The notes beneath the pieces are model-generated. The model saw only the letters and a program-made list of their open reading frames with translations. It was not told the origin of the DNA and did no database searches. A stretch of 64,000 nt of DNA from Streptomyces humi. GTDB lineage: Bacteria; Actinomycetota; Actinomycetes; Streptomycetales; Streptomycetaceae. Positions 8,513-48,004 of the stretch are shown here, piece after piece (position 1 is the stretch's first letter; every line of letters begins with the position of its first letter). Location of the stretch: the NCBI RefSeq assembly GCF_001005085.2, contig NZ_LBMU02000011.1, positions 57,073 to 121,072 on the forward strand, written 5' to 3'. A program made the position numbers and the translations under genes.

Positions 8513-9751
8513 TTACCAGGTCACGGGGAGTTCCAGCATCCCCTGGATCGTGTCGCCGGGTTTGCAGGGGATCGTCTCCGGCGGCGCGGCGAGCCGCAGG
8601 CCGGGGAGCCGCTCCCACAGGGTGCGCAGAACGATCTCCAGCTCGGTGCGGGCCAGGTTCTGGCCGAGGCACTGGTGGATGCCGAAGCCGAAGGCCACGT
8701 GGTGGCGGGCCGGGCGGTGCCAGTCGACGGTGTCGGGGTCGTCGTACACGGACTCGTCGCGGTTGATGACCGAGGTCGCGAAGAGCACGCCGTCACCCTT
8801 CCGGATCGTGGCGCCGGCCACCTCGATGTCCTCCAGGGCGACGCGCAGCAGTCCGTCCGCGATGGACAGCATCCGCATCAGCTCCTCGACGGCGGCGGGC
8901 ACCAGCGCGGGATCGGCGCGCAGTTCGGCCAGCCGCTCGGGCTGCTGGAGCAGGGTGAAGGTGCCGAGCGAGATCATGTTCGCGGTGGTCTCGTGCCCGG
9001 CGACCAGCAGGATGAGGGCGAGTGAGACGACCTCGTCGCGGTCCAGGGCGCCCTCGCGCAGCCGTTCGTGGACGAGGTCGTCGAGGACGCCGTCGCCGGG
9101 CGCCTCGTCCTTGCTCTTGCGGTCGGCCAGGTCGCCCAGGTAGGCCTCCAGCTTGTCGCGCGCGTCCAGGGAGTCCGCGGGCGCCGGGCCGCGCAGCAGC
9201 CGCCTGGACTGGGCCTCGAAGAACTCGTGGTCGGCGTACGGGACGCCGAGCAGGTCGCAGATGACCATGGACGGCACGGGCAGGGCGAAGGCGCTCACCA
9301 GGTCGGCCGGCGGCCCCTGGGCGATCATCCGGTCCAGCAGACCGTCGACGATCCGTTGGATGGCCGGCCGCATCGCGGTGGCGCGTTTGAGGGTGAAGTC
9401 CGGGATCAGCATCCGGCGCTGGATCTGGTGCTCGGGTCCGTCGAGGCCGAGCAGGGCCACCTTGCGGCGCTCCCGGGCCGCCGCGAACCGGGCGTTCGGC
9501 ATCGGGAAGTCGTCCCGGCGGCGGTCGCTGGAGAGCCGGGCGTCGGCGAGTAGCGCCCGGGCCGTGCCGTGGCCGGTGACCGCCCAGACGGTGCGGCCGT
9601 TGTAGAGCGTGACACGGGACAGCGGGGCCCCGTCGCGCAGCGGATCGTAGCCGGTGGGTGGGTGGTAGGGGCACGTGCGGTCCTGCGGCCAGGCCACGGG
9701 TTCGGCCGGCGCGGGGGTCGTGGGTTCCGTCAGGTCCGTCAGTTCGTTCAT
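8513..9751 (-). CDS. cytochrome P450, CYP105-like
   Basis: A 412-residue soluble haem monooxygenase. Motifs: I-helix AGHETT (251-256), K-helix ELMR (290-293, ExxR intact) and haem loop FGFGIHQCLG with Cys361 as thiolate ligand. The N-terminal TCPYHPPTGYDPLRDGAPL and TVWAVTGHGTARALLADARLS segments resemble CYP105 enzymes, which oxidise secondary metabolites, fatty acids and xenobiotics. ATG at 9751 follows GAGGTCTT. The ferredoxin gene lies directly downstream. No substrate-forming biosynthetic gene is adjacent, so the natural substrate is open. Confidence 0.93.
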   Translation of the reverse strand: MNELTDLTEPTTPAPAEPVAWPQDRTCPYHPPTGYDPLRDGAPLSRVTLYNGRTVWAVTGHGTARALLADARLSSDRRRDDFPMPNARFAAARERRKVALLGLDGPEHQIQRRMLIPDFTLKRATAMRPAIQRIVDGLLDRMIAQGPPADLVSAFALPVPSMVICDLLGVPYADHEFFEAQSRRLLRGPAPADSLDARDKLEAYLGDLADRKSKDEAPGDGVLDDLVHERLREGALDRDEVVSLALILLVAGHETTANMISLGTFTLLQQPERLAELRADPALVPAAVEELMRMLSIADGLLRVALEDIEVAGATIRKGDGVLFATSVINRDESVYDDPDTVDWHRPARHHVAFGFGIHQCLGQNLARTELEIVLRTLWERLPGLRLAAPPETIPCKPGDTIQGMLELPVTW

Positions 9752-16701: not shown

Positions 16702-18333
16702 ATGCACGCAGATCTGCTCTTCACCGGCGGGCCCGTCCTCACCCCGGAGGGCCCGACGGCGACCGCCGTGGCCGTCACCGGCGACCGTGTCACGGCCGTC
16801 GGGCACGACGAGGTGCGGGCCCTCGCGGGGCCCCGCACCGAGGTGGTCGACCTCGCCGGACGGCTGCTGCTGCCCGGGTTCCAGGACGCGCACGTCCATC
16901 CGGTGCCGGCCGGGCTGGAACTGGCCCAGTGCGATCTCACCGGGCTGCGGACCGCCGAGGAGAGCGTGGCGGCCGTACGGGCCTACGCCGAGGCCCGTCC
17001 GGAGCGGGAGTGGATCCTCGGCGGCGGCTGGTCGATGGAGGCGTTCGAGGGCGGTACGCCGACGAAAGAGCTGCTGGACGCCGTCGTACCGGACCGGCCG
17101 GTGTACCTGCCCAACCGGGACCATCACGGCGCCTGGGTGAACAGCCGGGCGCTGGAGCTGGCCGGGATCGGCCGCGACACGCCGGACCCGGCCGACGGGC
17201 GGATCGAGCGGGACGCCTCCGGCGCGCCGAGCGGCACCCTCCAGGAGGGAGCCATGCAGCTGGTCGGCCGGCTCGCCCCGGCGGCCACCGCGGCGGACCG
17301 GCTCGCGGCGCTGCTGCACGCCCAGCGGTATCTGCACGCGCTCGGCATCACGGCCTGGCAGGACGCGCTGATCGGTGACTTCCTCGGCATGGACGACCCG
17401 GCCGGGGCGTATCTCGCGGCGGCCCGGGACGGTTCGCTGACCGCGCGGGTGGTCGGGGCGCTGTGGTGGGACCGGGAGCGTGGCGCCGAGCAGATTCCCG
17501 AACTCGTCGAGAAGCGGGCCGCGTTCAGCCACGGCCGGTTCCGGGCGGGCACGGTGAAGCTGATGCTGGACGGGGTCGCGGAGAACGGCACGGCCGCACT
17601 GCTCGACCCCTACCTCGACGCGTGCGGCTGCGCCACCCGCAACCGGGGCAAGAGCTTCATCGATCCGAAGCGGCTTCCCGAGTACGTCACCGAGCTGGAC
17701 GCGCTCGGCTTCCAGTGTCACTTCCATGCGCTGGGCGACCGGGCGGTACGCGACGCGCTGGACGCCGTCGAGGCGGCGCGGACCGCCAACGGCCTCCGCG
17801 ACACGCGGCCCCACCTGGCACATCTCCAGGTCGTGCACCCGGCCGACGTGCCGCGTTTCGCCCAACTCGGCGCCACCGCCAACATCCAGCCGCTGTGGGC
17901 CGCGCACGAGCCGCAGATGGACGAGCTGACCATTCCCTTCCTGGGCTCCGAACGGGCCGGGTGGCAGTACCCGTTCGGGTCGCTGCTGCGCTCCGGGGCG
18001 CGGCTCGCGGCCGGCAGCGACTGGCCGGTGAGCAGCCCCGACCCGCTCCAGGGCGTCCATGTGGCGGTGAACCGGGTCGAACCGGGCGGCGCCGCGCCGG
18101 TGTTCCTGCCGGAGCAGCGGCTGAGCCTGACGGCGGCGCTCACGGCGTACACGGCCGGATCGGCGTACGTGAACCACCTCGACGACACCGGCCGGGTGGC
18201 GGCCGGGGCGCTCGCGGACCTGGTGGTCCTGGACCGCGATCCGTTCGCCGGGCCCCCGGAGGACCTCGCGGACACACGCGTCGCGCACACATACGTCGGG
18301 GGCGCGCGAGTGTACTCGGCTCAGGAGGCGTGA
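16702..18333 (+). CDS. amidohydrolase, YtcJ/AepA type
   Basis: A 543-residue metal-dependent hydrolase with an N-terminal beta-sandwich, the metal motif DAHVHP (His64 and His66), a mid-barrel FHALGDRAV and HLQVVHP, and the C-terminal GSDWPVSSPDPL aspartate, then TAGSAYVNH and a closing LADLVVLDRDPF strand. This is the amidohydrolase_3 (YtcJ) family; substrates include N-acyl amino acids and formamides. AAAAGGAAA precedes the ATG. It is the second gene of the permease unit, so its substrate is probably what the permease brings in. Confidence 0.9.
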   Translation: MHADLLFTGGPVLTPEGPTATAVAVTGDRVTAVGHDEVRALAGPRTEVVDLAGRLLLPGFQDAHVHPVPAGLELAQCDLTGLRTAEESVAAVRAYAEARPEREWILGGGWSMEAFEGGTPTKELLDAVVPDRPVYLPNRDHHGAWVNSRALELAGIGRDTPDPADGRIERDASGAPSGTLQEGAMQLVGRLAPAATAADRLAALLHAQRYLHALGITAWQDALIGDFLGMDDPAGAYLAAARDGSLTARVVGALWWDRERGAEQIPELVEKRAAFSHGRFRAGTVKLMLDGVAENGTAALLDPYLDACGCATRNRGKSFIDPKRLPEYVTELDALGFQCHFHALGDRAVRDALDAVEAARTANGLRDTRPHLAHLQVVHPADVPRFAQLGATANIQPLWAAHEPQMDELTIPFLGSERAGWQYPFGSLLRSGARLAAGSDWPVSSPDPLQGVHVAVNRVEPGGAAPVFLPEQRLSLTAALTAYTAGSAYVNHLDDTGRVAAGALADLVVLDRDPFAGPPEDLADTRVAHTYVGGARVYSAQEA

Positions 18334-18440: not shown

Positions 18441-18464
18441 ACGGGTGGCCGACAGGCCACCCGT
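18441..18464 (+). promoter_or_regulatory. leader hairpin before the terpene synthase
   Basis: A perfect 10-bp stem ACGGGTGGCC/GGCCACCCGT with loop GACA stands 48 bp before the terpene synthase ATG, in a 178-bp gap after the amidohydrolase. No T tract follows, so it is more likely a 5' leader structure or operator than a terminator. No clear -35/-10 pair was found around it. Confidence 0.45.
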
Positions 18465-18511: not shown

Positions 18512-19543
18512 ATGCCTCAGGACGTCACCTTCGACCTGCCCTTCGACACCCCCGTGAGCGAGCATCTGGAGCACGCGCGCGCCCGTCACCTGCGCTGGAT
18601 CTGGGACATGGACCTGGTGCGGAGCAAAGCCGGGTTCGAGGAGTACAAGTCGTGGGACCTGCCGCAGGCGGCCGCCCGGACCTACCCGCACGCCTCGGCC
18701 GAGGACATGGTCGTCCTGATGAACTGGTTCTCGCTGGCCTTCCTGTTCGACGACCAGTTCGACGCGAATCGGCCGGACCGCGCTGACCGGATCGCCGACG
18801 TCGCCCGTGAGCTGATCGTCACCCCGCTGCGCCCGGCCGGGATCCGGCCCCGCGTGGTCTGCCCGATCACGCTGGCGTGGGCGGAGGTCTGGCAGCATCT
18901 CTCGGATGGCATGTCCTTGACATGGCGGACGCGGTTCGCGGCCTCCTGGGGCCGGTTCCTCGTCGCACACTGCGAGGAGGTCGACCTGGCGGCCCGCGGG
19001 CTGGCGGGAACGCTCGACCTGGACGAGTACGCGGCGTTCCGGCGCCGTACCGTCGGCATCCACCACAGCATCGACGCGGGCGAGCGCAGCCGCGGCTTCG
19101 AGGTGCCGGCCCAGGTGCAGGCGCATCCGCTGATGGAGCGGATGCGGGATCTGGCCGCGGACACCATCGGGTTCATGAACGACATCCACTCCTTCGAGCG
19201 CGAGCGGCGCCGCGGCGACGGCCACAACCTGATAGCGGTGCTGCACCGGGAGCGGGGCGGCTCCTGGGAGGACGCCATGAAGGAGGCGTACCGGATGACC
19301 ACGGCCTGCCTCGACGAGTACGTCGAGCTGGAGGGGCGGGTGCCGCGCATGTGCGACGAACTCGGTCTCGACGAGAAGCAGCGGGACGACGTGCGGATGG
19401 GGGTGGAGGCCATCCAGCACTGGATCAACGGCAACTACGTCTGGGCGCTGACCTCGGGCCGGTACGCGGCGGCCAAGGAGGGGCCGGCGGTCGCGGCGGA
19501 GCGGGCCGGGCAGGGCTCGGTGGACGACCTGCTCGCCGTGTGA
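18512..19543 (+). CDS. class I sesquiterpene synthase
   Basis: A 343-residue terpene cyclase. It has the aspartate-rich motif DDQFD (80-84), the NSE triad N223/S227/E231 in NDIHSFERE, and the C-terminal RY pair R317-Y318, all in the usual places, so ionisation of farnesyl diphosphate with three Mg ions is expected. Length and the MPQDV start resemble the pentalenene/avermitilol synthase group of Streptomyces. The product cannot be predicted. AAAGGAAA precedes the ATG. It converges with a conservon P450 beyond a strong terminator; that P450 could act on the product but is not co-transcribed. Confidence 0.93.
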   Translation: MPQDVTFDLPFDTPVSEHLEHARARHLRWIWDMDLVRSKAGFEEYKSWDLPQAAARTYPHASAEDMVVLMNWFSLAFLFDDQFDANRPDRADRIADVARELIVTPLRPAGIRPRVVCPITLAWAEVWQHLSDGMSLTWRTRFAASWGRFLVAHCEEVDLAARGLAGTLDLDEYAAFRRRTVGIHHSIDAGERSRGFEVPAQVQAHPLMERMRDLAADTIGFMNDIHSFERERRRGDGHNLIAVLHRERGGSWEDAMKEAYRMTTACLDEYVELEGRVPRMCDELGLDEKQRDDVRMGVEAIQHWINGNYVWALTSGRYAAAKEGPAVAAERAGQGSVDDLLAV

Positions 19544-19630
19544 GGCACCGACGGCCCACCGGCCTGTCAGGCCCCGGACGGCCCCCGCCGGCCTGTGAGG
19601 CCCGACAGTCCGCCGGCCTGTGAGGCACCG
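19540..19630. repeat. four imperfect about 26-bp direct repeats
   Basis: Directly after the terpene synthase, and starting in its last codon, the segment with core GCCTGTGAGGC plus CCGACGGCCC is repeated four times (about 19541, 19561, 19592 and 19616). The repeats include the stop codon, so the gene end could slide without loss. They abut the terminator hairpin. Confidence 0.6.
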
Positions 19631-19676
19631 AACGGCCTGGGGCCGCCGTCCCCGCGGACGGCGGCCCCAGGCCGTT
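19631..19676. terminator. 21-bp perfect bidirectional terminator hairpin
   Basis: A perfect inverted repeat with 21-bp arms (19631-19651 and 19656-19676) and the 4-base loop CCGC lies between the convergent terpene synthase and conservon P450. The arm ends are AA/TT and the flanks carry little T, as common for high-GC hairpin terminators. It should stop transcription from both sides. Confidence 0.85.
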
Positions 19677-19696
19677 CTGCTGCCGCTTCCCGAGGC

Positions 19697-20938
19697 TCAG
19701 GCGGCGAACTCCACCGGCAGGCTGTCCAGCCGGGACTCCCAGGTGGAGGCCGTCGAGGTGAGTTCGTCGGCGGGGACGGCGAGGCGCAGTCCGGGCAGCC
19801 GGTGCAGCAGGACGTCCACGGCCGTCTCGATGATGCCCTGTCCGATGTTCTGCCCCGGGCATTCGTGCGGTCCGGCGCTGAACGCCAGGTGTGACTGGTT
19901 GCCGGCCACGGAGGCCGCGATGTCCGGGCGGATCACCGGGTCCACGTTGCCGGCGGCGAGACCGAGGAGCAGCATGTCGCCCTCCTTGATGGCCCGTCCG
20001 CCGAGCTCCAGGTCGGAGGTGGCGAACCGGCCCGGCAGCACGGCCAGCGGCGGGGTGTTCCACATGACCTCCTCCACCACGGAGGACATGTTCAGCTGGC
20101 CGCTGACCAGACCCGAGCGCAGGGCGTCGTCGGTCAGGACGATCTCCAGCACCCGGGCCAGCAGGTTGCTGGTGGTGGTGTGGGCGGTGATCAGCACCAG
20201 CCGCAGGTGCTGGACGATCTCGTCGTCGTCCAGGCCCGAGTGGTGGTCGATGAGCCCGGAGGCGAAGTCGGAGCCGGGCTCCGCGCGCTTGCGGGCGGCC
20301 AGTTCGGCGAGGATCGAGACGATCTTCTCGTTGTGCGCGAGGGCGTCCGCACCGCCCTTGATGACCTGCGCGCTGGACTCGGCGAGCGTGCGCCCCTCGC
20401 TCTCGGCGAGTCCGAAGACCCGGGTGAGCACCAGCATCGGCAGGTACTCGGCGAAGTCCGTGACCAGGTCGGCCCGGCCGCTGTCGGCGAAGGCGTCGAT
20501 CTGCTTGTTGGCGAAGTGCGTGACGTGGCGGCGGATGCCGCGGCCGGCCACCTTCAGCAGGTTGTCGGTGACCGCACCGCGCAGCCGGCGGTGCGGTTCG
20601 CCGTCCTGGGAGACGCAGTCGGGGCGCCAGCCCACCATCTGGATCAGGGGCGAGGTCTCGGAGACCTTGCCGTCCAGCCAGTCCCGCCAGATCCGCGAGT
20701 CACGGCTGAACTGGAGCGGGTTGTCGAGGACGCGCCGGTTCTCCCGGTACCCGAGCACCAGCCAGGCGGGCACGTCGCCCTCGACCAGGATGGGCGCGAC
20801 GGTGCCGTACACGTCCCGCAGCCGCTCGTAGATGCCGTGCGGGTCCTTCTCCGCGTCCGGCCCGTACAGGCGGGTGACGCCGGTGCCGTGGGCCACCGGG
20901 CAGCCGCCCCCGGCGCCCGGATCGTGCGGCGCGCTCAT
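19697..20938 (-). CDS. conservon cytochrome P450 lacking the ExxR arginine (CYP157-like)
   Basis: A 413-residue P450. The haem loop FSAGPHECPG with Cys360 is intact. The K-helix, which reads ExxR in nearly all P450s, is EVMW at 290-293: Trp replaces Arg. The I-helix is TAHTTT (251-256) with no acidic residue before the threonine. Loss of ExxR is the known peculiarity of the CYP157 family, found in Streptomyces conservons. The start overlaps the GTPase stop by 4 bp (ATGA), so it is the last gene of the conservon operon. Its activity is unknown; it may act on a terpenoid or be regulatory. Confidence 0.9.
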   Translation of the reverse strand: MSAPHDPGAGGGCPVAHGTGVTRLYGPDAEKDPHGIYERLRDVYGTVAPILVEGDVPAWLVLGYRENRRVLDNPLQFSRDSRIWRDWLDGKVSETSPLIQMVGWRPDCVSQDGEPHRRLRGAVTDNLLKVAGRGIRRHVTHFANKQIDAFADSGRADLVTDFAEYLPMLVLTRVFGLAESEGRTLAESSAQVIKGGADALAHNEKIVSILAELAARKRAEPGSDFASGLIDHHSGLDDDEIVQHLRLVLITAHTTTSNLLARVLEIVLTDDALRSGLVSGQLNMSSVVEEVMWNTPPLAVLPGRFATSDLELGGRAIKEGDMLLLGLAAGNVDPVIRPDIAASVAGNQSHLAFSAGPHECPGQNIGQGIIETAVDVLLHRLPGLRLAVPADELTSTASTWESRLDSLPVEFAA

Positions 20939-21540
20939 CGGGACTCCAGGGCCACGGCCGAGCGCTCCTGAAGGTGCTGGATGAGCGCGACGAGCACGTC
21001 CCGGCTGGAGGCCCGGTCCCGGGCGTCGCAGGCCACGATCGGGGTGTGCGGGGAGATGTCGAGGGCGTCCCGGATCTCCTCGACGGGGTGCTGCGCGGAG
21101 TCCGGGAAGACGTTCAGGGCGATGACGAAGGGCACGTTCTGCCGCTCCATCTCCTCGATCGCCCGGAAGCTGGAGGCCAGCCGGCGGGTGTCCACCAGGA
21201 CGATCGCGCCGAGCGCCCCCTTGAACAGCCCGTTCCACAGGAACCAGAACCGTTCCTGCCCGGGGGTGCCGAACAGGTACAGCATCAGGCTCTCGTTGAG
21301 GCTGATCTTGCCGAAGTCGAGGCTGACCGTGGTCTCGGCCTTGTCCGCGACACCGATGAGGTTGTCGACGCCGACGGTCGCCTGGGTGAGCGTCTCCTCG
21401 GTGGTGAGCGGCTTGATGTCGCTGACGGAGCGGACCATCGTGGTCTTCCCGGTGCCGAACCCCCCGGCGATCATCACCTTGACCGAACGGGTCCCCCCGG
21501 CACCGGGGTCGCCGGGATGGTCAAAGCCTTTCAAGTCCAC
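20935..21540 (-). CDS. cvnD: conservon GTPase CvnD
   Basis: A 201-residue small GTPase. P-loop GGFGTGKTT (26-34), switch-II motif FGTPGQERFWFLW (about 90-102) and an NKxD-equivalent region around IALNVF, where the usual Asn-Lys-x-Asp is not conserved, as in the family. It is the G-protein-like part of the CvnA-D complex thought to work at the membrane like eukaryotic GPCR-G-protein assemblies. GTG at 21540 has GGAGG upstream and overlaps the DUF742 gene by 20 bp. Longer in-frame starts would lie inside the DUF742 gene. Confidence 0.95.
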   Translation of the reverse strand: MDLKGFDHPGDPGAGGTRSVKVMIAGGFGTGKTTMVRSVSDIKPLTTEETLTQATVGVDNLIGVADKAETTVSLDFGKISLNESLMLYLFGTPGQERFWFLWNGLFKGALGAIVLVDTRRLASSFRAIEEMERQNVPFVIALNVFPDSAQHPVEEIRDALDISPHTPIVACDARDRASSRDVLVALIQHLQERSAVALESR

Positions 21541-21892
21541 TGAGTACCTCCTGGAGGAGCGCGAGGTCGGGCCCGCGTCCGGCGTGGTGCGCCGGAATGG
21601 GATCACGGGCTTCAATACGGCCTGCGTCCAGCAGATCCGCCAACAGCACCGCGAGAATGTTGAAGGGCAATCCGAGATGAGCGGTGAGTTCGGCCACCGA
21701 GAGCGGATCGCGGCAGCGCCGGACTATCTCCTCGTGCTCGTGCTGCATCCCCGGGACCGGGGCGGCGCGGGAGACGACGAGGGTGGCCACGTCGAGGCTC
21801 GACGCCGCCCCGCCCGGTCCGCTGCGCCCCCCGGTGAGGACGTAGTAACGCTCGAGACCGGAGGGGTCCGTGGGCCGGCGGGGAGCACTCAT
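21521..21892 (-). CDS. cvnC: conservon DUF742 protein CvnC
   Basis: A 123-residue protein with the DUF742 pattern: YYVLTGGRS near residue 16, a middle EEIVRRCRDPLSVAELTAHL with winged-helix character, and LPFNILAVLLADLLDAG. The family member acts as a partner of the conservon kinase-like protein and GTPase. It overlaps the roadblock gene by 4 bp (ATGA) and the GTPase gene by 20 bp, so translation is coupled. Confidence 0.93.
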   Translation of the reverse strand: MSAPRRPTDPSGLERYYVLTGGRSGPGGAASSLDVATLVVSRAAPVPGMQHEHEEIVRRCRDPLSVAELTAHLGLPFNILAVLLADLLDAGRIEARDPIPAHHAGRGPDLALLQEVLSGLERL

Positions 21893-22299
21893 CCAGAGTG
21901 CTCCTCCAGGCGCGGAGAGGTGCCGAGCAGCTCGCCCATCCGCCGGGACAGGTCCCTCATCTGGTGGCCGAGCAGCCCCTGGTCGAGCCCTTCACGGGCG
22001 AGGACCCCGAGATACGTCTCCACACCGGCCCGCACGACGAAGAGGTGACCGCCGTCGACCTCGATCATCGCCAGCCGCAGCTGCCCCGCGTACTTGGGGA
22101 ACTGCTCGGCGACGGGCTGGGCGAGCGCCTGGAGCCCTGCCACCACGGCCGCGAAGCGGTCCACGTCGTCGGGGTCCTCGGCGCCGAAGGAGGTGATGGC
22201 CTTGCCGTCGCTGGAGGCCACGAGGGCGAAGCGGATCTCCGGGATGCTCTCCACGAGATCGCGGAGCGCCCAGCTCACGTCGGTTCCCTGTTGCGTCAT
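21889..22299 (-). CDS. cvnB: conservon roadblock/LC7 protein CvnB
   Basis: A 136-residue roadblock/LC7-domain protein, with SIPEIRFALVASSDGKAI at the N-terminus and a central GQLRLAMIEVDGGHLFVV strand pair. Roadblock proteins dimerise and regulate small GTPases; here the partner is the CvnD protein two genes downstream. The stop of the histidine-kinase-like gene lies 5 bp upstream, and its own stop overlaps CvnC. Confidence 0.95.
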   Translation of the reverse strand: MTQQGTDVSWALRDLVESIPEIRFALVASSDGKAITSFGAEDPDDVDRFAAVVAGLQALAQPVAEQFPKYAGQLRLAMIEVDGGHLFVVRAGVETYLGVLAREGLDQGLLGHQMRDLSRRMGELLGTSPRLEEHSG

Positions 22300-22304
22300 G
22301 TGGA

Positions 22305-24095
22305 CTAGTCGCTCTCTTCAGTGCGGTGCTCCGTGGCCTCGCGTCCGGCGGCGGCGTCATCGGCGCCGGCCGGGGTCGCGGGTGCCACGACGTCTTGGTC
22401 TCCGGTCAACTCGGCCTCGCTGTCCGCCTCTTCGTCGGCCACGGGCACCCGGCCCGCGGTGGCGAAGGCGGCCAGACCCGCGAAGGACTCCTCGGGCGGG
22501 ACCGCGGTGAACGCGGCGCCCTCCGTACGGACGGCGCGCGCCTCGGGCTGCTCCTCCTCCGCGCGGCGCCGGCTGCGCCGCCGGGGCAGTCCGCCCGGGG
22601 TGGTGTCCAGGGCCTCGCCGGACTCCGGCTGGCTGACGGGTTCGACGACGACCGGGCCCTGCGCCTGCACCGGGGACGCGGCGGCGGGGGCGGCCGCCAC
22701 GGGTGCCGGGGCGGCGGGGGCCACGGGCAGCGGGCTGAAGTACTTGTGGGGGACCACGACGACCACCGAGGTGCCGAGCCAGGGCGAGTCCGCGAAGGTG
22801 ACCCGGATGCCGTAGCGGCGGGCGAGGATGCCGACGACCCGCAGGCCGATGTTGGCGTCCTCGGAGATGCCGCCGATACCGGGTCCGGCCGCGGTGCCGG
22901 CCAGGGAGTGCTCGGCCTCGCGCTTCTTCTCCTCGCTCAGGCCCTTGCCGGAGTCCTGGATCTCGATGCCGACACCGTTGGGCACCTCCTTGCCGGAGAC
23001 GAGGACCGGCTCGGTGGGCGGCGAGTAGCGGGCCGCGTTGTCCAGGAGGTGCGAGAAGATCAGCGTGAGGTGGTCCACCAGACCGCCGTCGACGCCGAGT
23101 TCGGGCAGGTGCCGGACCTCGACGCGGTGGAAGTCCTTGATCCGGCCGATGCCACCGCGCACCACGCTGAGCAGCCGCTGGGGCTCCTGCCACTGCCGGC
23201 CCGGGCGGTCCGAGCCGCCGAGCACACCGATACTCGCCGCGAGCGAGTCGGCGGGGCCGAGCTCCTGGTCGAGCTCCATGAGCCCGCGGGCCACGGCGGG
23301 CAGCCGGCCGTGCTCGCCCTGCATCTCGTGCAGCCGGCCGCGCAGCTTGCTGGTGAGGACGTGGATGCGGTTGCCGATGCTGATGACGGCCTGTTCGGCG
23401 GAGGTCGAGCGGTTGAACTCCTCCTCCACACCGATCAGCGAGGTGCGCAGGATCCGGCGCAGGTCGGCCTGGAGGTCCTTGTCGACCTTGGCGCACTGCT
23501 CGGTCACCGGCAGCAGGTCGTCGATGGCGTCGCCGTCGCGCAGCCGCTTCAGCGCCTCGGGCAGCTGCTCGTCGGCGAGCCGGGAGATCGCGGCGCGCTG
23601 GTGCCCGACCTGCTCCTGCCAGACCTCGGCCTGGTCGGCGAGCCGGCCCTCGGCGGCCTTCAGCTGGTCGGCGAGCCGCTCCTCGTACGCCCGTGCCTGC
23701 TCGGCCAGTTGGGTGTCGTAGTGGGCGGTCTGCTCGTCGAGCCGGGACTCGAACGCGGCCGCCTGCTCGTTCAGCTGGCCCTCCAGCGTGGCGCGCTCGG
23801 CCGAGAACTTCCGTTCCAGACCGGATACGTGCTGCTGCCACTGCTGGGAGTGCTCGGCCTGCGAGCTGCGGAACGATCCCTCGGCGCTGCGCAGTTGACG
23901 CTGCGAGCGGATCAGTAGTCGTACACACACGAAGCTGGCGGCGGTGGCCGCGGCACCGGCGACGGCCGCGGTTATTCGCTCGGAGCTCATGAACGTGGCG
24001 GCGACCGTCCCTCCCCCTAAGGCCAGCGGCATCAGCCACCAGCTGTACCAGGCGACAGGGGCCCGCGCCGCCGGCGGCGGAGTGGCGAGTTCCAT
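22305..24095 (-). CDS. cvnA: conservon sensor histidine-kinase-like protein CvnA
   Basis: A 596-residue membrane protein. Two membrane helices (about 13-32 and 39-60) lead into a long glutamine/alanine-rich coiled coil (about 65-165), then an HATPase_c domain with N-box HLLDNAARYSPP, G1 box QDSGKGL and G2 GIGG..NIGLRVV. No phospho-accepting H-box is obvious, as for nitrate/sulphonate-type conservon kinases. A Pro/Ala- and acid-rich tail of about 170 residues follows. The second of two ATGs (24095) has GAAGG 6 bases upstream. It heads the conservon operon cvnA-B-C-D-P450. Confidence 0.92.
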   Translation of the reverse strand: MELATPPPAARAPVAWYSWWLMPLALGGGTVAATFMSSERITAAVAGAAATAASFVCVRLLIRSQRQLRSAEGSFRSSQAEHSQQWQQHVSGLERKFSAERATLEGQLNEQAAAFESRLDEQTAHYDTQLAEQARAYEERLADQLKAAEGRLADQAEVWQEQVGHQRAAISRLADEQLPEALKRLRDGDAIDDLLPVTEQCAKVDKDLQADLRRILRTSLIGVEEEFNRSTSAEQAVISIGNRIHVLTSKLRGRLHEMQGEHGRLPAVARGLMELDQELGPADSLAASIGVLGGSDRPGRQWQEPQRLLSVVRGGIGRIKDFHRVEVRHLPELGVDGGLVDHLTLIFSHLLDNAARYSPPTEPVLVSGKEVPNGVGIEIQDSGKGLSEEKKREAEHSLAGTAAGPGIGGISEDANIGLRVVGILARRYGIRVTFADSPWLGTSVVVVVPHKYFSPLPVAPAAPAPVAAAPAAASPVQAQGPVVVEPVSQPESGEALDTTPGGLPRRRSRRRAEEEQPEARAVRTEGAAFTAVPPEESFAGLAAFATAGRVPVADEEADSEAELTGDQDVVAPATPAGADDAAAGREATEHRTEESD

Positions 24096-24443: not shown

Positions 24444-24806
24444 ATGGAAGTCCTGGCGAACGTGCTGGTCGGGCTGGTGGCCGCGTTGCACGCGTACATC
24501 CTGGTGATGGAGATGTTCCTGTGGCAGAAGACGCCCGGGATGCGGTTCCACGGCTTCGACGCCGAACTGGCCCGGCGGACCGCGCCGTTGGCCGCCAACC
24601 AGGGGCTCTACAACGGCTTCCTGGCAGCCGGCCTGGTGTGGGGACTGGTGGCGGCCGACCCGACGGGCTTCGCGGCGCAGGTGTTCTTCCTGTCGTGCGT
24701 GGTGGTCGCGGGGGTGTACGGCGCGGCCACCGCCAGCCGGCGGATCCTGTTCGCGCAGGCGCTGCCCGGCGCGCTCGCCCTGGCCGCCGTGCTCGCCGCC
24801 CGGTGA
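24444..24806 (+). CDS. DUF1304 small membrane protein
   Basis: A 120-residue protein with four hydrophobic helices, beginning EVLANVLVGLVAALHAYILV and containing AANQGLYNGFLAAGLVW, the DUF1304 signature. Family function is unknown; it may be a small transporter or resistance protein. GGGAGGG lies upstream of the ATG. The TGA overlaps the GTG of the downstream TetR gene (GTGA), so both are translated from one mRNA. Confidence 0.87.
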   Translation: MEVLANVLVGLVAALHAYILVMEMFLWQKTPGMRFHGFDAELARRTAPLAANQGLYNGFLAAGLVWGLVAADPTGFAAQVFFLSCVVVAGVYGAATASRRILFAQALPGALALAAVLAAR

Positions 24807-25438: not shown

Positions 25439-26545
25439 TCAGAAGGTGAGCACGGGCTTGATCGCCTTGCCCGTGGTCATGTCCTGAACGGCCCGGTCGA
25501 TCTCGGCGAACGGGTAGGTGGCGATCAGCCGGTGCAGCGGCAGCCGCCCCTCGCCGACCAGCCGGACCAGGGCCGGGATGAACGCCTGGGTCTCGCTGTC
25601 GCCCAGCGTCAGGCCGACGATCCGCTTGCCGGCCAGCAACCCGTTGACGTCCAGGGGCACTTCGGTGCCGAAGGGCGGGGCGCCCACGACGACCAGGGTG
25701 CCGCGGGCGGCGAGGGCGTCGACGCCCTGGCGGAGCACGCCGGTGTTGCCGGTGGTCTCCACGACGCCGTCGGCGCCGGCACCGTCGGAGATCCGCCGGA
25801 CGGCGTCCGATATGTCCTCCCGGGTGGCGTCGACGGTGTGGGTCGCGCCCAACTCCCTTGCCAGTTCGAGCCGTTCGGCCACCCGGTCGACGGCGACGAT
25901 CGTGGTGGCGGGGGTGATCGCGGCCGCCATGACCGCCGAGAGGCCCACCGCCCCGGCGCCGAGTACGACGACCGTGCTGCCGGTGGCCGGCTCCAGCACG
26001 TTCCACACGGCACCGACCCCGGTCTGCACCCCGCAGCCGAGCGGGGCGACCGACTCCAGCGGGACGTCCGGGTCGACCTTGACGAGGCTGCGCTCGTCCA
26101 CCAGCGCCCGCTCGGCGAAGGAGGACTGGCCGAAGAAGTGCCCGCCGAGCGGCTCGCCGTCCCGGCTGACGGTGGCGGTGCCGTCGGCGCGCCGGCCGCC
26201 GATCAGGTTGAGCGGCAGCCAGGTGGCGCAGTAGGCGGGATGGCCGCCGTGACAGTTGCGGCAGTCACCGCAGGAGGTGAAGGACAGCACCACGTGGTCG
26301 CCGGGGGCGACGGAGGTGACGGCGGAGCCGACGGCCTCCACGACACCGGCGCCCTCGTGGCCGAGGACTCCCGGCAGCGGGAAGGGCAGTCCGCCGCTCG
26401 CCACGCCGAGGTCGGTGTGGCACAGACCGGTGGCCACCATCCGGACCAGCGCCTCGCGGGGCCCCGGTGCGTCGAGTTCGACGTCGGTGAGGGTGAAGGG
26501 TGCGCCGCCGGACTCGACCACGGCGGCTCGGGTGGTGATGGGCAT
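25439..26545 (-). CDS. zinc-dependent NAD(P) alcohol dehydrogenase
   Basis: A 368-residue medium-chain dehydrogenase. Catalytic zinc ligands: C of GLCHTDL (about 44), H of GHEGAG (about 66), C of LGCGVQTG (about 170). The structural-zinc lobe SCGDCRNCHGGHPAYC is complete. The coenzyme loop is VLGAGAVGLSAV, with D of VAVDR indicating NAD preference. It resembles aryl-alcohol (benzyl alcohol) dehydrogenases. AGGAG is 8 bases from the ATG. It lies 25 bp after the aldehyde dehydrogenase in the same operon, forming an alcohol-to-acid route. Confidence 0.93.
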   Translation of the reverse strand: MPITTRAAVVESGGAPFTLTDVELDAPGPREALVRMVATGLCHTDLGVASGGLPFPLPGVLGHEGAGVVEAVGSAVTSVAPGDHVVLSFTSCGDCRNCHGGHPAYCATWLPLNLIGGRRADGTATVSRDGEPLGGHFFGQSSFAERALVDERSLVKVDPDVPLESVAPLGCGVQTGVGAVWNVLEPATGSTVVVLGAGAVGLSAVMAAAITPATTIVAVDRVAERLELARELGATHTVDATREDISDAVRRISDGAGADGVVETTGNTGVLRQGVDALAARGTLVVVGAPPFGTEVPLDVNGLLAGKRIVGLTLGDSETQAFIPALVRLVGEGRLPLHRLIATYPFAEIDRAVQDMTTGKAIKPVLTF

Positions 26546-26570
26546 CGTACGAACTCCTGGTCTGCGGGGC

Positions 26571-28028
26571 TCAGTCGAGCGCGACGACGACGGACTTGAC
26601 CTTGGTGTAGGCCGCCAGGGCCTCGGGGCCGTACTCACGGCCGAAGCCGGAGGCCTTGACGCCGCCGAAGGGGACGGCGGGGTCGAGCAGCGCCCAGTCG
26701 TTCACCCAGACGATCCCGGCCTGGAGACGGGCGGCGACCCGGTGGGCGCGGCCGAGGCTGCCGGTCTGGATGCCCGAGGCCAGGCCGTACGGTGTGGAGT
26801 TGGCGAGGGCGACGGCCTCGTCCTCGGTGTCGAAGGGCTGCACCGTGAGGACCGGGCCGAAGATCTCGTCCTGGATCACCCTGGAGTCGTTCGGCAGGTC
26901 GGCGACGACGGTCGGCCGGTAGTAGAAACCGCCGTTCAGGTCGAGGCGTTCGCCGCCGCAGACGATCCGGCCGCCCTCCTTGCGGGCGAGTTCGACGTAC
27001 TCCTCGACCTTGCGCAGGTGCTTCTCCCCCGCCATCGGGCCGACCACGGTGGCCGGGTCGCGCGGGTCGCCGACGGGGACGCCGGGGACGGCCTCGGCGA
27101 GGATGCCGAGCAGGGTGGCGTAGACCGGGCGGGCGACCAGGAGCCGGGGGCCGCCCATGCAGAACTGGCCGGTGTTGAAGACGAAGGCCTTGATCACCGC
27201 GCCGACGGCCTTCTCCAGGTCGGCGTCCTCGAAGACCAGGTGGGCCGCGTTGCCGCCGAGTTCCACGGTGACCGGCTTGAGGGCCTGGCCCGCCGTGCCC
27301 GCCACGTGCCGGCCGATGGCGGTGGAGCCGGTGAACGCGACCTTGTCGATGCCCGGGTGGCGCAGCAGGGCCTCGCCCGCGACCGGTCCGGCGCCGGTGA
27401 CGACGTTGACCACCCCGTCCGGGACGCCCGCCTCCTTGAACAGGCGGGCCATGTACAGGGCGCTGAGCGGGGTCTCGTCGGCCGGCTTGTGGACGACCGT
27501 GTTGCCGGCGGCGAGGGCCGGCCCGATCTTCGAACCGGCCAGGATCAGCGGGAAGTTGAAGGGTGTGATGGCCGCGACCACGCCGACCGGTTCGTGCCGG
27601 GTGTAGGCGAGGGCATTGAGCGGGACGTCGCGGACGGCGCCGTCGAGGGAGTGCGCGAGGGCCGCGAAGTGCTCGTAGTCGTTGGCCGCGTTGGTGACGT
27701 CGACCGCCGTGGCCAGGGTGATCGGCTTGCCGACGTCCAGGCTCTCCAGGGCCGCGATCTCCTCGGCGTTCTCCCGGATCAGCTCGGCGATCCGGTGCAG
27801 CACCCGGCCGCGCTCCCGGCCGCTGAGCCCCGACCACTCCCCCGCGTCGAAGGCCTCCCGTGCGGCGCGCACGGCGGCGTCGACGTCGGAGGCGCCTGCC
27901 TCCGCGACCGTGGTGACCACCCGGCCGGTGGCCGGGTCGGTCACCTCCGTCCGGCCCCCGTCGGCGGCCTCCCGCCACTGTCCGCCGATGAACAGCCGCC
28001 CCGGGCCGGTCTCGAAGGTGGTCGTCAT
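26571..28028 (-). CDS. NAD(P)-dependent aldehyde dehydrogenase
   Basis: A 485-residue aldehyde dehydrogenase. General base Glu in VTVELGGNAAHLV (about 252) and catalytic Cys in NTGQFCMGGPRLLV (about 287) are in place, plus the oxyanion Asn in FNFPLILAGSK and the C-terminal EIFGPVLTV. Length is standard. The nearest described type is benzaldehyde/salicylaldehyde-like. GGGAG lies before the ATG. It is divergent from a MarR gene with two palindromes between, so an aldehyde or aromatic acid may be the inducer. Confidence 0.93.
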   Translation of the reverse strand: MTTTFETGPGRLFIGGQWREAADGGRTEVTDPATGRVVTTVAEAGASDVDAAVRAAREAFDAGEWSGLSGRERGRVLHRIAELIRENAEEIAALESLDVGKPITLATAVDVTNAANDYEHFAALAHSLDGAVRDVPLNALAYTRHEPVGVVAAITPFNFPLILAGSKIGPALAAGNTVVHKPADETPLSALYMARLFKEAGVPDGVVNVVTGAGPVAGEALLRHPGIDKVAFTGSTAIGRHVAGTAGQALKPVTVELGGNAAHLVFEDADLEKAVGAVIKAFVFNTGQFCMGGPRLLVARPVYATLLGILAEAVPGVPVGDPRDPATVVGPMAGEKHLRKVEEYVELARKEGGRIVCGGERLDLNGGFYYRPTVVADLPNDSRVIQDEIFGPVLTVQPFDTEDEAVALANSTPYGLASGIQTGSLGRAHRVAARLQAGIVWVNDWALLDPAVPFGGVKASGFGREYGPEALAAYTKVKSVVVALD

Positions 28029-44839: not shown

Positions 44840-47800
44840 TCAGGACGAGGCGTACACATCCTCCACGTAACGGCCCTCCCGCACCAGGGAGTTCAGCCAT
44901 TCCTCGGCGTCTCCTCCCGGTGTGCGGTCGCGGTACATCGTACGGAACGCCTCCCGGACCCCGGGGGCCATCCGGCCGCCGTCGCCGCAGACGTACACCT
45001 TCGCGCCCGCTGCCAGCAGGGCCCACACCTCGTCGGCCTCGGCTGTGACCCGGTGCTGGACGAAGGTGCCCGCCGTGCTGAAGGCCGGGCGCACCGAGAC
45101 GGCACCGGCGGCCTCCGCCGTGCGCAGTTCCCCGGCGTGCAGGAAGTCCTCGTCGGGCGCGTCGCAGCCGAAGTAGCAGAGCGCGGGCGGGAGTCCGGTG
45201 CCCGAGGCGAGGGCCGCCGTACGGTCGGCGACGGCGCCCCGGAAGGGGGCCAGGCCGGTGCCCGCGGCGATCATGACCACCGGGACGGTGTGGTCGACCC
45301 GGAAGGCCTCCCGGCAGGGCTGGACGCGGGCGAGCAGGGTGTCGCCGGGGCGGAGCGACGTCAGGTGGCCGGAGCCCGTGCCCCGGTAGCGGCCCGCGCC
45401 GGACCTGGCGGGGGCGTCCAGGAGGGAGATCATCAGCTCGGCGTGGCGGGGGTCGGCGGCCGGGGACGAGGAGATCGAGTAGTGGCGCGGCTTCAGCGGG
45501 GTCAGGAGGTCCAGGAGGCGGGGCCAGTCGAGGGCGCCGCGCAGGGCCGGGTGGCCCTCGAGGATCTCGACCAGGGTGCGCGGGTCGCCATCCTCCGAGG
45601 CCAGGGCGGCCAGGGCGGCCCGCTCCGGCGGGCAGGGGTTGGCGTCGGAGAGCAGGGACAGCTGCTCGGCGTTCGGGCGCTCCTGCAACTCGACGTGCCG
45701 GGTGAGCAGTTCACGCACCGTCAGCGGCCGGTCGACCGCCAGGCCGTCGCGTCGGGGGCGGGTGGAGCGGATGTCGAGGACGGTTTCCGGATCGACGCCG
45801 AGAGCGGTGGCGGCGCGCGTGACGAGGGCCGGGTCGTTGGCGGGGAGCACGGTCAGGTGGTCGGCGGTGCGGTAGGTGACGCCGGCGGGCAGGGCCACGC
45901 GCAGGAAACGCTTGGTGCGGGGGTGCCCGGCGGCGGTGAGGTCGTAGGCCTCGGTGACGGTCATCGGGACGAGTCCGTGGCGTTCGGCGAGGGCGTCGAG
46001 GGGACCGCCGGTCAGGGCCCGGACCTGGTACGCGGTGGTGGGCTCCGGGGCCGCCGAGGGGGTGGCGTCGGGGTCGCCGTACCGCTCCAGCAGGGCGGTG
46101 CGCAGCCCGGCGGTGAAGTCGCGGACCGTGCCGGTCAGGTCGCCGGAGGCGTCGGCGGCGGCGCGGCCGGTGAGGCGGGTGGCGCCGAGTTCGGCCAGTC
46201 GGGTGTCGATCCGGGTCGGGACGTGCTGGTAGGTGGCGGCCCAGTTGCGGTCGCCGACGCCGAGCACCGCGTAGGTCACGCCGGTGAGGTCGGGGGTGCT
46301 GTCGAGCCAGGCGGCGAAGGCGGTGGCGTCGTCGGTGGGACGCCCGTTGTAGGAGGCGGCGGTGATGACCACCGGCCGGTCGGTGGGCAGCCCGGCGGCG
46401 TACGCGTCCAGCGCCGCCACCTCGGTGTCGCAGCCGATGCCGGCCGCCTCGTCGGCGAGCCGGGCGGCGAAGTCCCGGCAGGTGCCGTAGTTGCTGCCGT
46501 GCAGCAGGAGGGCGCCGGTGCCGGTGCGGACCCGGGCCGGGAGGGCGGCCGTCGGCCGCGGGTCCTGGACGGCCGCCGGCCGGGCACCGGGCAACGGCGG
46601 GTGGAGGCGGTCGGCTGGGGTGCGCGGGGCGAGGGTCAGGGTGAAGCCCTCGGGCTTGAGGGTGAGGGTCTCCTTGACCGTGAGCGCGTACCGGTCGTGG
46701 TCCTGGATCCGGTAGCGGTGCACCAGCATGGCCAGCAGCATGGTTGCCTCGTGCAGGGCGAACTGCCTTCCGATGCAAGCGCGTTCACCGGTGCCGAAGG
46801 GCTTGAAGGCGTGCACCGGGCGGGCCGCCTCGGCCTCCGGGGTGAACCGGGAGGGGTCGAAGAGCTCGGGGTTGTCACCCCAGACCGGCTGCCGGTGCAG
46901 CATCGGCGCGAGCACCGTGACGGACTGGCCGGCCGTCAGCGGCACCCGTCCGCCGAGCAGGGTGTCGTCGAGGGCGTGCCGGCTGAACGCGGCGGCGGTC
47001 GGCCACAGCCGCAGTGCCTCGTTGAGCACCTGCCGGGTGTAGGTGAGGCGGCCGACCTCGTCGTAGCCGGGCTCCGGGTCCGGCGTGTCGCCCCAGAGCG
47101 CGTCCGTCTCGCGCTGTACGAGCCGGAGCGCGGTGGGGTGCTTGGCCAGGTAGTACAGGGCGAAGGACATCGCGCCGGAGGTGGTCTCGTGGCCGGCGAT
47201 GAGGAAGGTGATGACCTGGTTGCGGATGTTGGCCCGGTCCAGGGTGGTGCCGTCGTCGGGGTGCCGGGCGGACAGCATCAGGCCGAGCAGGTCCTCCGCC
47301 GTGCTCTGGTCGGTGCCGGTGCGGGAGGCGATGACGTCGTCCACGACCTGGGCGAGGTGGTCGGCGTCGGCCCGGAAGGCGGCGTCGGCCGCCGAGTGGT
47401 CGGTGCCGGGCCTGCGGGCCAGGCGGGTCATGCTCCACTCCAGGCAGCGGACCATGGACTCGACGAAGGGGTGGGGTTCGGTGCGCTCGAAGGAGCCGAA
47501 GTCGTAGCCGAAGCCGGCGAGGCCGATGGTGTCGAGGGTCATCCGGGTCATGTCGTCCGGTACGTCCACCGGCCGGCCGTCGCGGGCGGCCCGGTCCCAG
47601 GACGCGATCAGCCGGCGGGCGACCCTCAGCATCACCGGGTGGTAGGTGCGCATCGAGCCGAGCGCGAAGGCGGGCATCAGGATGTCGTGCGCCTTGGCCC
47701 AGTTGGGCTCGTCGTTGTAGGCGGTGAACAGTCCGTCGGCGGCGAACGCGCGGACGTTCTCCAGGGCGGGCCCGACGTGCTTGGCGAACCGCTGCTCGTC

Positions 47801-48004
47801 AGCGAGGTCGGCGACCAGGTCGGTGTCGGCGACGAACAGGGTGTCCCGTCCGTGCAGCCGACGTACCAGCACTGGGCCGTGCTCCCGCATCAGGCCCATG
47901 ACCTGCTGGATCGGGGTGCGGCCCGGTCCGGTGGCGGTGATGTCCACGACGGGGACGCCGGTCAGGGGCTCAGCGGTGCCGGGGTGCTGCGCGGTGGGGG
48001 GCAT
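44840..48004 (-). CDS. self-sufficient P450/NADPH-P450 reductase (CYP102 type)
   Basis: A 1054-residue fusion, the length of P450 BM3. Haem domain: I-helix AGHETTS (270-276), ExxR EALR (329-332), haem loop FGTGERACIG with Cys410. A linker leads to the FMN domain (ALLLHGSNYGTCRDFAARL at about 485, and GVGDRNWAATY), then the FAD/NADPH part with RHYSISSSP, GTGLAPFRG and CYFGCDAPDEDFLH. It should hydroxylate fatty acids or similar using NADPH alone. ATG at 48004 has a distant AAAGG. Divergent from a PAS-LuxR regulator gene. Confidence 0.95.
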   Translation of the reverse strand: MPPTAQHPGTAEPLTGVPVVDITATGPGRTPIQQVMGLMREHGPVLVRRLHGRDTLFVADTDLVADLADEQRFAKHVGPALENVRAFAADGLFTAYNDEPNWAKAHDILMPAFALGSMRTYHPVMLRVARRLIASWDRAARDGRPVDVPDDMTRMTLDTIGLAGFGYDFGSFERTEPHPFVESMVRCLEWSMTRLARRPGTDHSAADAAFRADADHLAQVVDDVIASRTGTDQSTAEDLLGLMLSARHPDDGTTLDRANIRNQVITFLIAGHETTSGAMSFALYYLAKHPTALRLVQRETDALWGDTPDPEPGYDEVGRLTYTRQVLNEALRLWPTAAAFSRHALDDTLLGGRVPLTAGQSVTVLAPMLHRQPVWGDNPELFDPSRFTPEAEAARPVHAFKPFGTGERACIGRQFALHEATMLLAMLVHRYRIQDHDRYALTVKETLTLKPEGFTLTLAPRTPADRLHPPLPGARPAAVQDPRPTAALPARVRTGTGALLLHGSNYGTCRDFAARLADEAAGIGCDTEVAALDAYAAGLPTDRPVVITAASYNGRPTDDATAFAAWLDSTPDLTGVTYAVLGVGDRNWAATYQHVPTRIDTRLAELGATRLTGRAAADASGDLTGTVRDFTAGLRTALLERYGDPDATPSAAPEPTTAYQVRALTGGPLDALAERHGLVPMTVTEAYDLTAAGHPRTKRFLRVALPAGVTYRTADHLTVLPANDPALVTRAATALGVDPETVLDIRSTRPRRDGLAVDRPLTVRELLTRHVELQERPNAEQLSLLSDANPCPPERAALAALASEDGDPRTLVEILEGHPALRGALDWPRLLDLLTPLKPRHYSISSSPAADPRHAELMISLLDAPARSGAGRYRGTGSGHLTSLRPGDTLLARVQPCREAFRVDHTVPVVMIAAGTGLAPFRGAVADRTAALASGTGLPPALCYFGCDAPDEDFLHAGELRTAEAAGAVSVRPAFSTAGTFVQHRVTAEADEVWALLAAGAKVYVCGDGGRMAPGVREAFRTMYRDRTPGGDAEEWLNSLVREGRYVEDVYASS

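Follow-up and report, generated by a model that had tools for sequence, protein, structure and literature searches.

A conservon P450 without the ExxR arginine and its conserved terpene synthase neighbour in Streptomyces humi

Streptomyces humi carries a complete conservon, cvnA-cvnB-cvnC-cvnD-P450, at 19697-24095 (minus strand) of the 64,000-nt stretch of DNA analysed here, which we call the window (NCBI RefSeq assembly GCF_001005085.2, contig NZ_LBMU02000011.1, positions 57,073 to 121,072). Its fifth gene encodes a CvnE-type cytochrome P450 with tryptophan in place of the K-helix arginine of the ExxR motif. This loss of arginine is real and is already known for the family; what is new is that the P450 has a conserved terpene-synthase partner. 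The synthase gene beside the P450 is the informative part of the locus and was overlooked by the initial annotation of this DNA, which was made from the sequence alone. We think it quite possible, and propose tentatively, that the degenerate P450 serves in the cytosol as receptor for the terpenoid of the neighbouring synthase and feeds the CvnA kinase.

The linkage was followed in two samples. The first comprised the best 80 of 122 loci from a locus scan in which VVEEVMWN was among the six seeds. At 59 of these orthologous loci the synthase is present, and at 14 the same convergent place is taken by TS2, a streptomycete protein family of 560-580 aa (576 aa). Only C-terminal synthase relics are left at two loci (L070, L079), and three (L018, L038, L044) end too early for the neighbour to be judged. 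In L032 the synthase is 4.8 kb away. Apart from the synthase, no window gene outside the operon has homologues at more than 53 of the 80 loci, which differ in the length of flank reached. The second sample took one genome per species from the genus, 246 in all, with that of S. humi among them. The best few first-look candidates per genome were scored, and the ortholog classes top the resulting lists with clear gaps (75 to 35% and 67 to 57% identity). The P450 ortholog occurs in 47 genomes (67-100% identical; next match 57%), the eudesmol synthase ortholog in 27 (75-100%; next match 35%), and TS2 in 20. By coordinates, the 47 P450 genomes divide into 27 with the synthase and 20 with TS2; none has both and none has neither, and among the matches listed for the other 199 genomes there was no ortholog of the synthase or of TS2. 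Ortholog loci with neither gene do exist, as the 80-locus scan contains two (L037, L061). The synthase is convergent with the P450 within 1 kb in 24 of the 27 genomes and within 5 kb in 26; in G238 the P450 lies 77 nt from the contig end. Similarly, TS2 is convergent within 1 kb in 17 of its 20 genomes and is 3.5 kb away in G235, while in G087 and G137 it lies beyond the cvnA end of the operon and is divergent from that gene.

The window's synthase belongs to PF19086, carries the DDxxD and NSE motifs, and scores above the NCBIfam equivalog cut-off for 7-epi-alpha-eudesmol synthase (NF041564; 701 against 680 bits). The same conservon-P450-synthase layout is found in S. viridochromogenes DSM 40736 (L059), the source of 7-epi-alpha-eudesmol synthase. 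That enzyme has been described, the strain was not seen making the product, and the conservon is unmentioned in the passages concerned (PMC6604706). A strong hairpin lies just 5' of the window's synthase start (18441-18464). A common RNA fold sought 5' of the synthase in 56 sequences gave no useful consensus; many single sequences have a hairpin, with differing arm sequences.

At some of the loci where TS2 stands beside the conservon, traces of the synthase remain. In G235 (L222), 24 residues of the synthase start survive as a relic (79% identical) about 240 nt ahead of TS2, and the P450 is adjoined by a C-terminal TS2 fragment. The TS2 proteins P0087, P0088, P0095 and P0098 have starts much like that of the synthase itself. 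The relic and these starts point to replacement of the synthase by TS2 in place. Across 12 TS2 loci, the DNA 5' of TS2 was no more identical to that 5' of the synthase than shuffled sequence, so the synthase promoter has not been retained. TS2 matched nothing in Pfam or NCBIfam, had no meaningful sequence match in the PDB, and did not align with the terpene synthase profile (hhalign probability 0.1%). Its relatives (the best 120 of 151) are called hypothetical protein where they are named, and once transposase. The family has invariant aspartates and a [ND]DMxDxRAD-like stretch, which we take to resemble class I terpene synthase motifs, and structural comparison with the class I isoprenoid synthase fold was weakly in favour. 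From the gene replacement and these weak structural hints, we hypothesize that TS2 is a terpene synthase.

Beyond the orthologs, we inspected the 60 best-scoring non-orthologous matches from the 246-genome search (49-57% identical; 60 loci, three genomes appearing twice). A terpene synthase is next door at 38 of them, convergent at 36 and on the same strand at 2; the synthase profile was grown from the window's synthase, and very distant synthases may be missed. All four cvn genes are shown upstream at 53 loci, and contig ends truncate two more (L197, L202). The other loci (L176, L196, L211, L212, L217) have neither a conservon nor a synthase next door, although L212 has a synthase about 5 kb off; their P450s have Trp, belong to the same clade and each have another, ExxR-type P450 nearby. 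A synthase beside each and every CvnE conservon was rejected as a rule, since 22 of the 60 loci have none next door and none was found near four further CvnE conservons of the S. humi genome.

The synthases beside Arg-less P450s are strongly diverged. They form nine groups with less than 40% identity between groups (group means 17-36%). All eight group representatives scanned are PF19086, and group G also exceeds the cut-off of the selinadiene synthase model (579 against 450 bits). Across the class, 17 of the 197 genomes searched yielded CvnE-like proteins (E <= 1e-90); three of the 17 are outside the genus, all three in a single other family. All three outside-genus cases comprise cvnA-D, a Trp P450 and a convergent PF19086 synthase, and their synthases make up a tenth group, at most 29% identical to the other nine.

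On a tree of 96 CvnE rows, labels for the nine synthase groups, TS2, no synthase, ExxR and other own-genome proteins need 17 changes (minimum 12, shuffled mean 66, none of 200 shuffles as low); the tree includes 17 of the 81 ortholog rows, and near-copies favour clustering of this sort. Labels B, E, F, G, H and TS2 each require one change, and C and D three each. The synthase groups largely follow the P450 tree. In addition, positions that are invariant inside each synthase group yet differ from group to group are concentrated in the predicted substrate-recognition stretches, which hold 17 of the top 40 against 58 of the 271 in the pool (P = 0.0009), or 19 of 40 with group A included (P = 0.0002); the boundaries of these stretches were set from general P450 landmarks, which counts against the result. 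The enrichment set held 47 P450s, including 12 of group A; of the 38 synthase-linked rows, three (L172, L200, L201) were left out.

Could the linkage be mere hitchhiking, a stable neighbourhood inherited together with no functional tie? Species share ancestry and are non-independent, and distances between groups are uncorrelated, as hitchhiking would allow. We nevertheless regard it as very improbable: ten strongly diverged synthase groups stand beside these P450s, nearly always convergent, TS2 has taken over the very position of the synthase, of which a relic persists (L222), and in two genomes TS2 flanks the operon at its opposite end.

The P450 matches PF00067 (29.7 bits, cut-off 22.8) and keeps the haem cysteine, and it lacks the ExxR motif, the meander arginine and the I-helix acid of catalytic P450s. 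The initial annotation had read the haem Cys360, Trp293 and the acid-free I-helix in this way, and our codon reading and alignments bear it out. It had also named a frame or alignment slip at the K-helix as a finding that would overturn its claim. We found none: the K-helix aligns without gaps to the solved P450s 7cl9 and 6l69 (SSVVEETLR against SSVVEEVMW), and the frame is secure, the ATG at 20938 overlapping the cvnD stop by 4 nt. The ExxR glutamate is retained (E290) and the arginine alone is replaced. Trp293 and the HEC triplet occur in 81 of 81 alignment rows (the 80 loci and the window), a set that leans to Trp because VVEEVMWN was a seed and only the best 80 of 122 were kept. Trp is equally present in all 60 distant relatives, which were found without that seed. 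In those 60, Gln or His takes the place of the window's Glu at position 290, the short meander lacks the PDRF-type Arg, and the I-helix acid position holds Glu in 54, Ser in 5 and Gln in 1. In the ortholog alignment, none of the 80 rows displayed, out of 81, has the acid; its loss is, by these alignments, peculiar to the window's clade, a point that the initial annotation overlooked.

Arg-less proteins fall on one side of a branch (100/99) in the 96-row tree, against 15 ExxR rows. The S. humi genome encodes four more P450s behind cvnD; at the K-helix arginine position three of them have Trp and the fourth, that of C214, has His. On C169, C19 and C214 (L125-L129, L136), the Arg-less P450 is followed by a tandem second P450 that has ExxR. 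Median dN/dS over the 80 loci is 0.25 for cvnE, 0.18 for the synthase and 0.21 for cvnD, which indicates purifying selection. A pseudogene or frame error was rejected on the gap-free K-helix, the 81 of 81 Trp, the secure frame and the dN/dS of cvnE; chance or sequencing error as the source of Trp293 was rejected on the Trp of the orthologs and the distant relatives.

The initial annotation took loss of ExxR to be established for CYP157 of Streptomyces conservons, and this is indeed in print: CYP157 proteins without ExxR have the motifs EVLW, EQILW and EQSLW in the passages describing them (PMC3599690). The window P450 shares this feature, a K-helix with Trp instead of the ExxR arginine. An own-genome relative on C68, 43% identical, has the K-helix EQSLW of CYP157C, the comparison with named CYP157 proteins being one of motifs. 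On these sequence grounds, the grouping with CYP157-type conservon P450s is correct. A genome-wide Pfam P450 search missed 19697-20938, although hmmscan scores that gene above the cut-off; CvnE proteins may therefore escape P450 counts that rely on Pfam.

The operon itself has the conservon genes in the expected form, cvnA (HATPase), cvnB (roadblock), cvnC (DUF742) and cvnD (small GTPase), in that order and on one strand (Table 1). The initial annotation had described five overlapping genes. All five are where it placed them, and those from cvnB to the P450 do overlap (B-C 4 nt, C-D 20 nt, D-E 4 nt); cvnA and cvnB, by contrast, are separated by a 5-nt gap. The cvnD start is best placed at GTG 21540, with AGGAGG ahead, and cvnD has 12 matches in its own genome, itself included. 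By hydropathy, the CvnA N terminus has two hydrophobic segments with few residues between them and no extracytoplasmic sensor domain. The P450 thus has both marks of a CvnE-type accessory protein: a gene directly 3' of cvnD and a cognate CvnA without an extracytoplasmic sensor, the latter from hydropathy only.

Table 1. Features of the conservon locus and of TS2 loci
Feature	Position	Strand	Basis
cvnA, histidine-kinase-like, HATPase_c, 596 aa	22305-24095	-	domain match, hydropathy
cvnB, roadblock/LC7 (Robl_LC7), 136 aa	21889-22299	-	domain match
cvnC, DUF742, 123 aa	21521-21892	-	domain match
cvnD, Ras-like GTPase (ATP_bind_1), 201 aa	20935-21540	-	domain match, frame
cvnE-type cytochrome P450, 413 aa, E290-V-M-W293, TAHTTT, haem Cys360, short meander	19697-20938	-	domain match, alignments
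I-helix residues 251-256, TAHTTT, no acid before Thr	20171-20188	-	sequence
codon 293, TGG, Trp at the ExxR Arg position	20060-20062	-	codon read, alignment
codon 360, haem-ligand Cys	19859-19861	-	codon read; HEC in 81/81 ortholog rows
inverted repeat, arms ~21 bp, terminator-like on both strands, between synthase and P450	19631-19676	.	fold z = -5.5 for 19540-19700
terpene synthase, 343 aa, DDQFD and NDIHSFERE, convergent with P450	18512-19543	+	profile match, motifs
TS2	L034 8667-10394	-	replaces synthase
TS2	L222 2949-4676	+	replaces synthase
TS2	L218 8977-10626	+	replaces synthase

Further genes adjoin these features in the window. An amidohydrolase (16702-18333, plus strand) and a DUF1304 protein (24444-24806, plus strand) are neighbours, followed by a zinc alcohol dehydrogenase (25439-26638, minus strand) and an aldehyde dehydrogenase (26571-28028, minus strand). 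A closely similar amidohydrolase start also adjoins TS2 in L031 and L034. The window contains three more P450 matches, at 46637-47914 (minus), 55649-56956 (plus) and about 8615-9088 (minus).

How might such a P450 and a terpene synthase belong together? In our proposal, haem and a terpenoid would be bound in the old P450 pocket. Loss of the ExxR arginine, of the meander arginine and, in the window's clade, also of the I-helix acid would have turned a monooxygenase into mainly a ligand-binding protein. Ligand binding may then alter how the P450 meets the ATPase domain of CvnA, an analogy taken from CvnF8 and CvnA8, and the altered contact could in turn change the state of CvnB, CvnC and CvnD. 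CvnA would thereby respond, through the P450, to a sesquiterpenoid: 7-epi-alpha-eudesmol or a derivative. Several observations are consistent with the P450 being such a receptor, namely the synthase linkage, the ten synthase groups, the fit of labels to the tree, the enrichment at predicted pocket positions and the purifying selection. In C169, C19 and C214, moreover, the partner may again be a small-molecule enzyme, the tandem ExxR P450. A CvnA without a sensor domain also fits the rule reported for CvnE and CvnF, accessory proteins that accompany such CvnA proteins (PMC13343842, 2026, in the part bearing on this). In that study, CvnF8 binds and stimulates CvnA8, and AlphaFold predicts CvnE11 touching the HATPase domains of CvnA11; an input role was suggested, with the experiment on CvnF8 only. 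The initial annotation had considered a regulatory or structural role in the kinase/roadblock/GTPase complex. A regulatory input is indeed plausible, and published work has proposed one for CvnE proteins; from the same passages on CvnF8 and CvnE11 the candidate partner can be narrowed to CvnA.

The main rival, possible in our estimate though somewhat doubtful, holds that CvnE is a working though unusual P450 and oxidises what the neighbouring synthase makes, with the conservon regulating or scaffolding a two-step pathway and the oxidised terpenoid as end product. Synthase-P450 neighbours are indeed usual in terpenoid pathways, as for epi-isozizaene and albaflavenone (PMC6604706, in the passages on these). 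Cys360 and the I-helix Thr are kept, distant CvnE proteins mostly have the I-helix Glu, and the substrate-recognition positions track the synthase group. Against this, both arginines are missing in the CvnE rows aligned, the window's clade has lost the I-helix acid, and the P450 sits within a signalling operon, overlapping cvnD, and is separate from the synthase, with a terminator-like hairpin between.

It is also conceivable, but in our view unlikely, that the synthase is the output of the conservon: the system would turn on terpene production, and CvnE would be a structural adaptor or would sense O2, CO, NO or haem. Haem-thiolate proteins can sense gases, which counts for this explanation, and the cvn8 conservon is described as a global regulator of specialised metabolism in the passages concerned (PMC8510531). 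Taken alone, it does not account for the agreement of synthase type and predicted pocket stretches with the CvnE tree, unless all were inherited together.

Several results weigh against the P450 being a receptor, besides the placing of the stretch boundaries noted above. No synthase is next door at 17 of the 55 distant loci other than those shown to lack a conservon, and none was found near C68, C169, C19 and C214 of the S. humi genome in stretches of 14-17 kb. The 54 distant CvnE proteins with an I-helix Glu have what a working monooxygenase would have. In most P450s the substrate-recognition stretches differ from one subfamily to the next, so a catalytic P450 would show the same enrichment. 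Where TS2 took over from the synthase, the predicted pocket did not change unusually (ratio 1.16, the clade ranking 9th of 31). Between groups, synthase and P450 distances are uncorrelated (r = 0.125, 2132 of 9999 permutations as high); the correlation of 0.825 over all rows arises from relatedness within groups. The 47 genomes are not independent events because the species share ancestry. Finally, the AlphaFold model of the P450 is poor (mean pLDDT 57) and lends no structural support.

The systematic pairing of P450 and synthase bears on how conservons receive their input and on the purpose of ExxR-less P450s: it names candidate ligands that can be made, and receptor, substrate and scaffold models thereby become separable. 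If the proposal is true, a bacterial G-protein-type system would have a degenerate P450 as its receptor and the cell's own sesquiterpene as its signal, and the widespread streptomycete sesquiterpenes would gain a candidate function. The replacement pattern also points to the unannotated TS2 family as a possible new terpene synthase. A bolder generalization, which we would put forward only with considerable doubt, is that conservon P450s without ExxR are a receptor family for terpenoids of their own cell, with the ligand changing as synthases are exchanged and TS2 being an unrecognised terpene synthase family.

No link between a conservon and a terpene synthase was found in the open-access literature, subscription papers lying mostly outside the search and supplements being unread. 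In the open-access papers containing conservon together with terpene or sesquiterpene, at least one of the words occurs, among the passages retrieved, only in the references or in an unrelated passage; a paper pairing "terpene synthase" with "roadblock" uses the latter, where it appears, in its everyday sense. CYP157 is reported among the commonest P450 families in biosynthetic clusters and terpene as the commonest P450-holding cluster type, the two not being joined in the passages concerned (PMC7369989).

Among known systems, CYP157A and CYP157C of Streptomyces conservons are like the window P450 in having Trp for the K-helix Arg, the Cys kept and the gene behind cvnD. They differ in that the window's clade keeps the ExxR Glu and has lost the I-helix acid, and the window P450 has no second P450 behind it and is paired, in its clade, with a eudesmol synthase gene or TS2. 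Alpha-pyrone quorum sensing reportedly runs through a conservon in Nocardiopsis, going by a 2024 title in Microbiol. Res. As in our proposal, a small molecule made by bacteria would act through a conservon, there an alpha-pyrone and not a terpenoid, and the title thus offers a precedent for a small-molecule signal through a conservon. The CvnF8-CvnA8 pair resembles the window in its fifth gene behind cvnA-D, its CvnA without an extracytoplasmic sensor and its suggested input; in the passages describing it, CvnF8 is a GAF protein and was tested, whereas the window's is a P450-family protein (PMC13343842). The epi-isozizaene synthase and albaflavenone system likewise joins a terpene synthase to a neighbouring P450. 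Its P450, as portrayed in the relevant passages, is catalytic and clustered with the synthase, whereas that of the window is Arg-less and lies inside a convergent signalling operon (PMC6604706).

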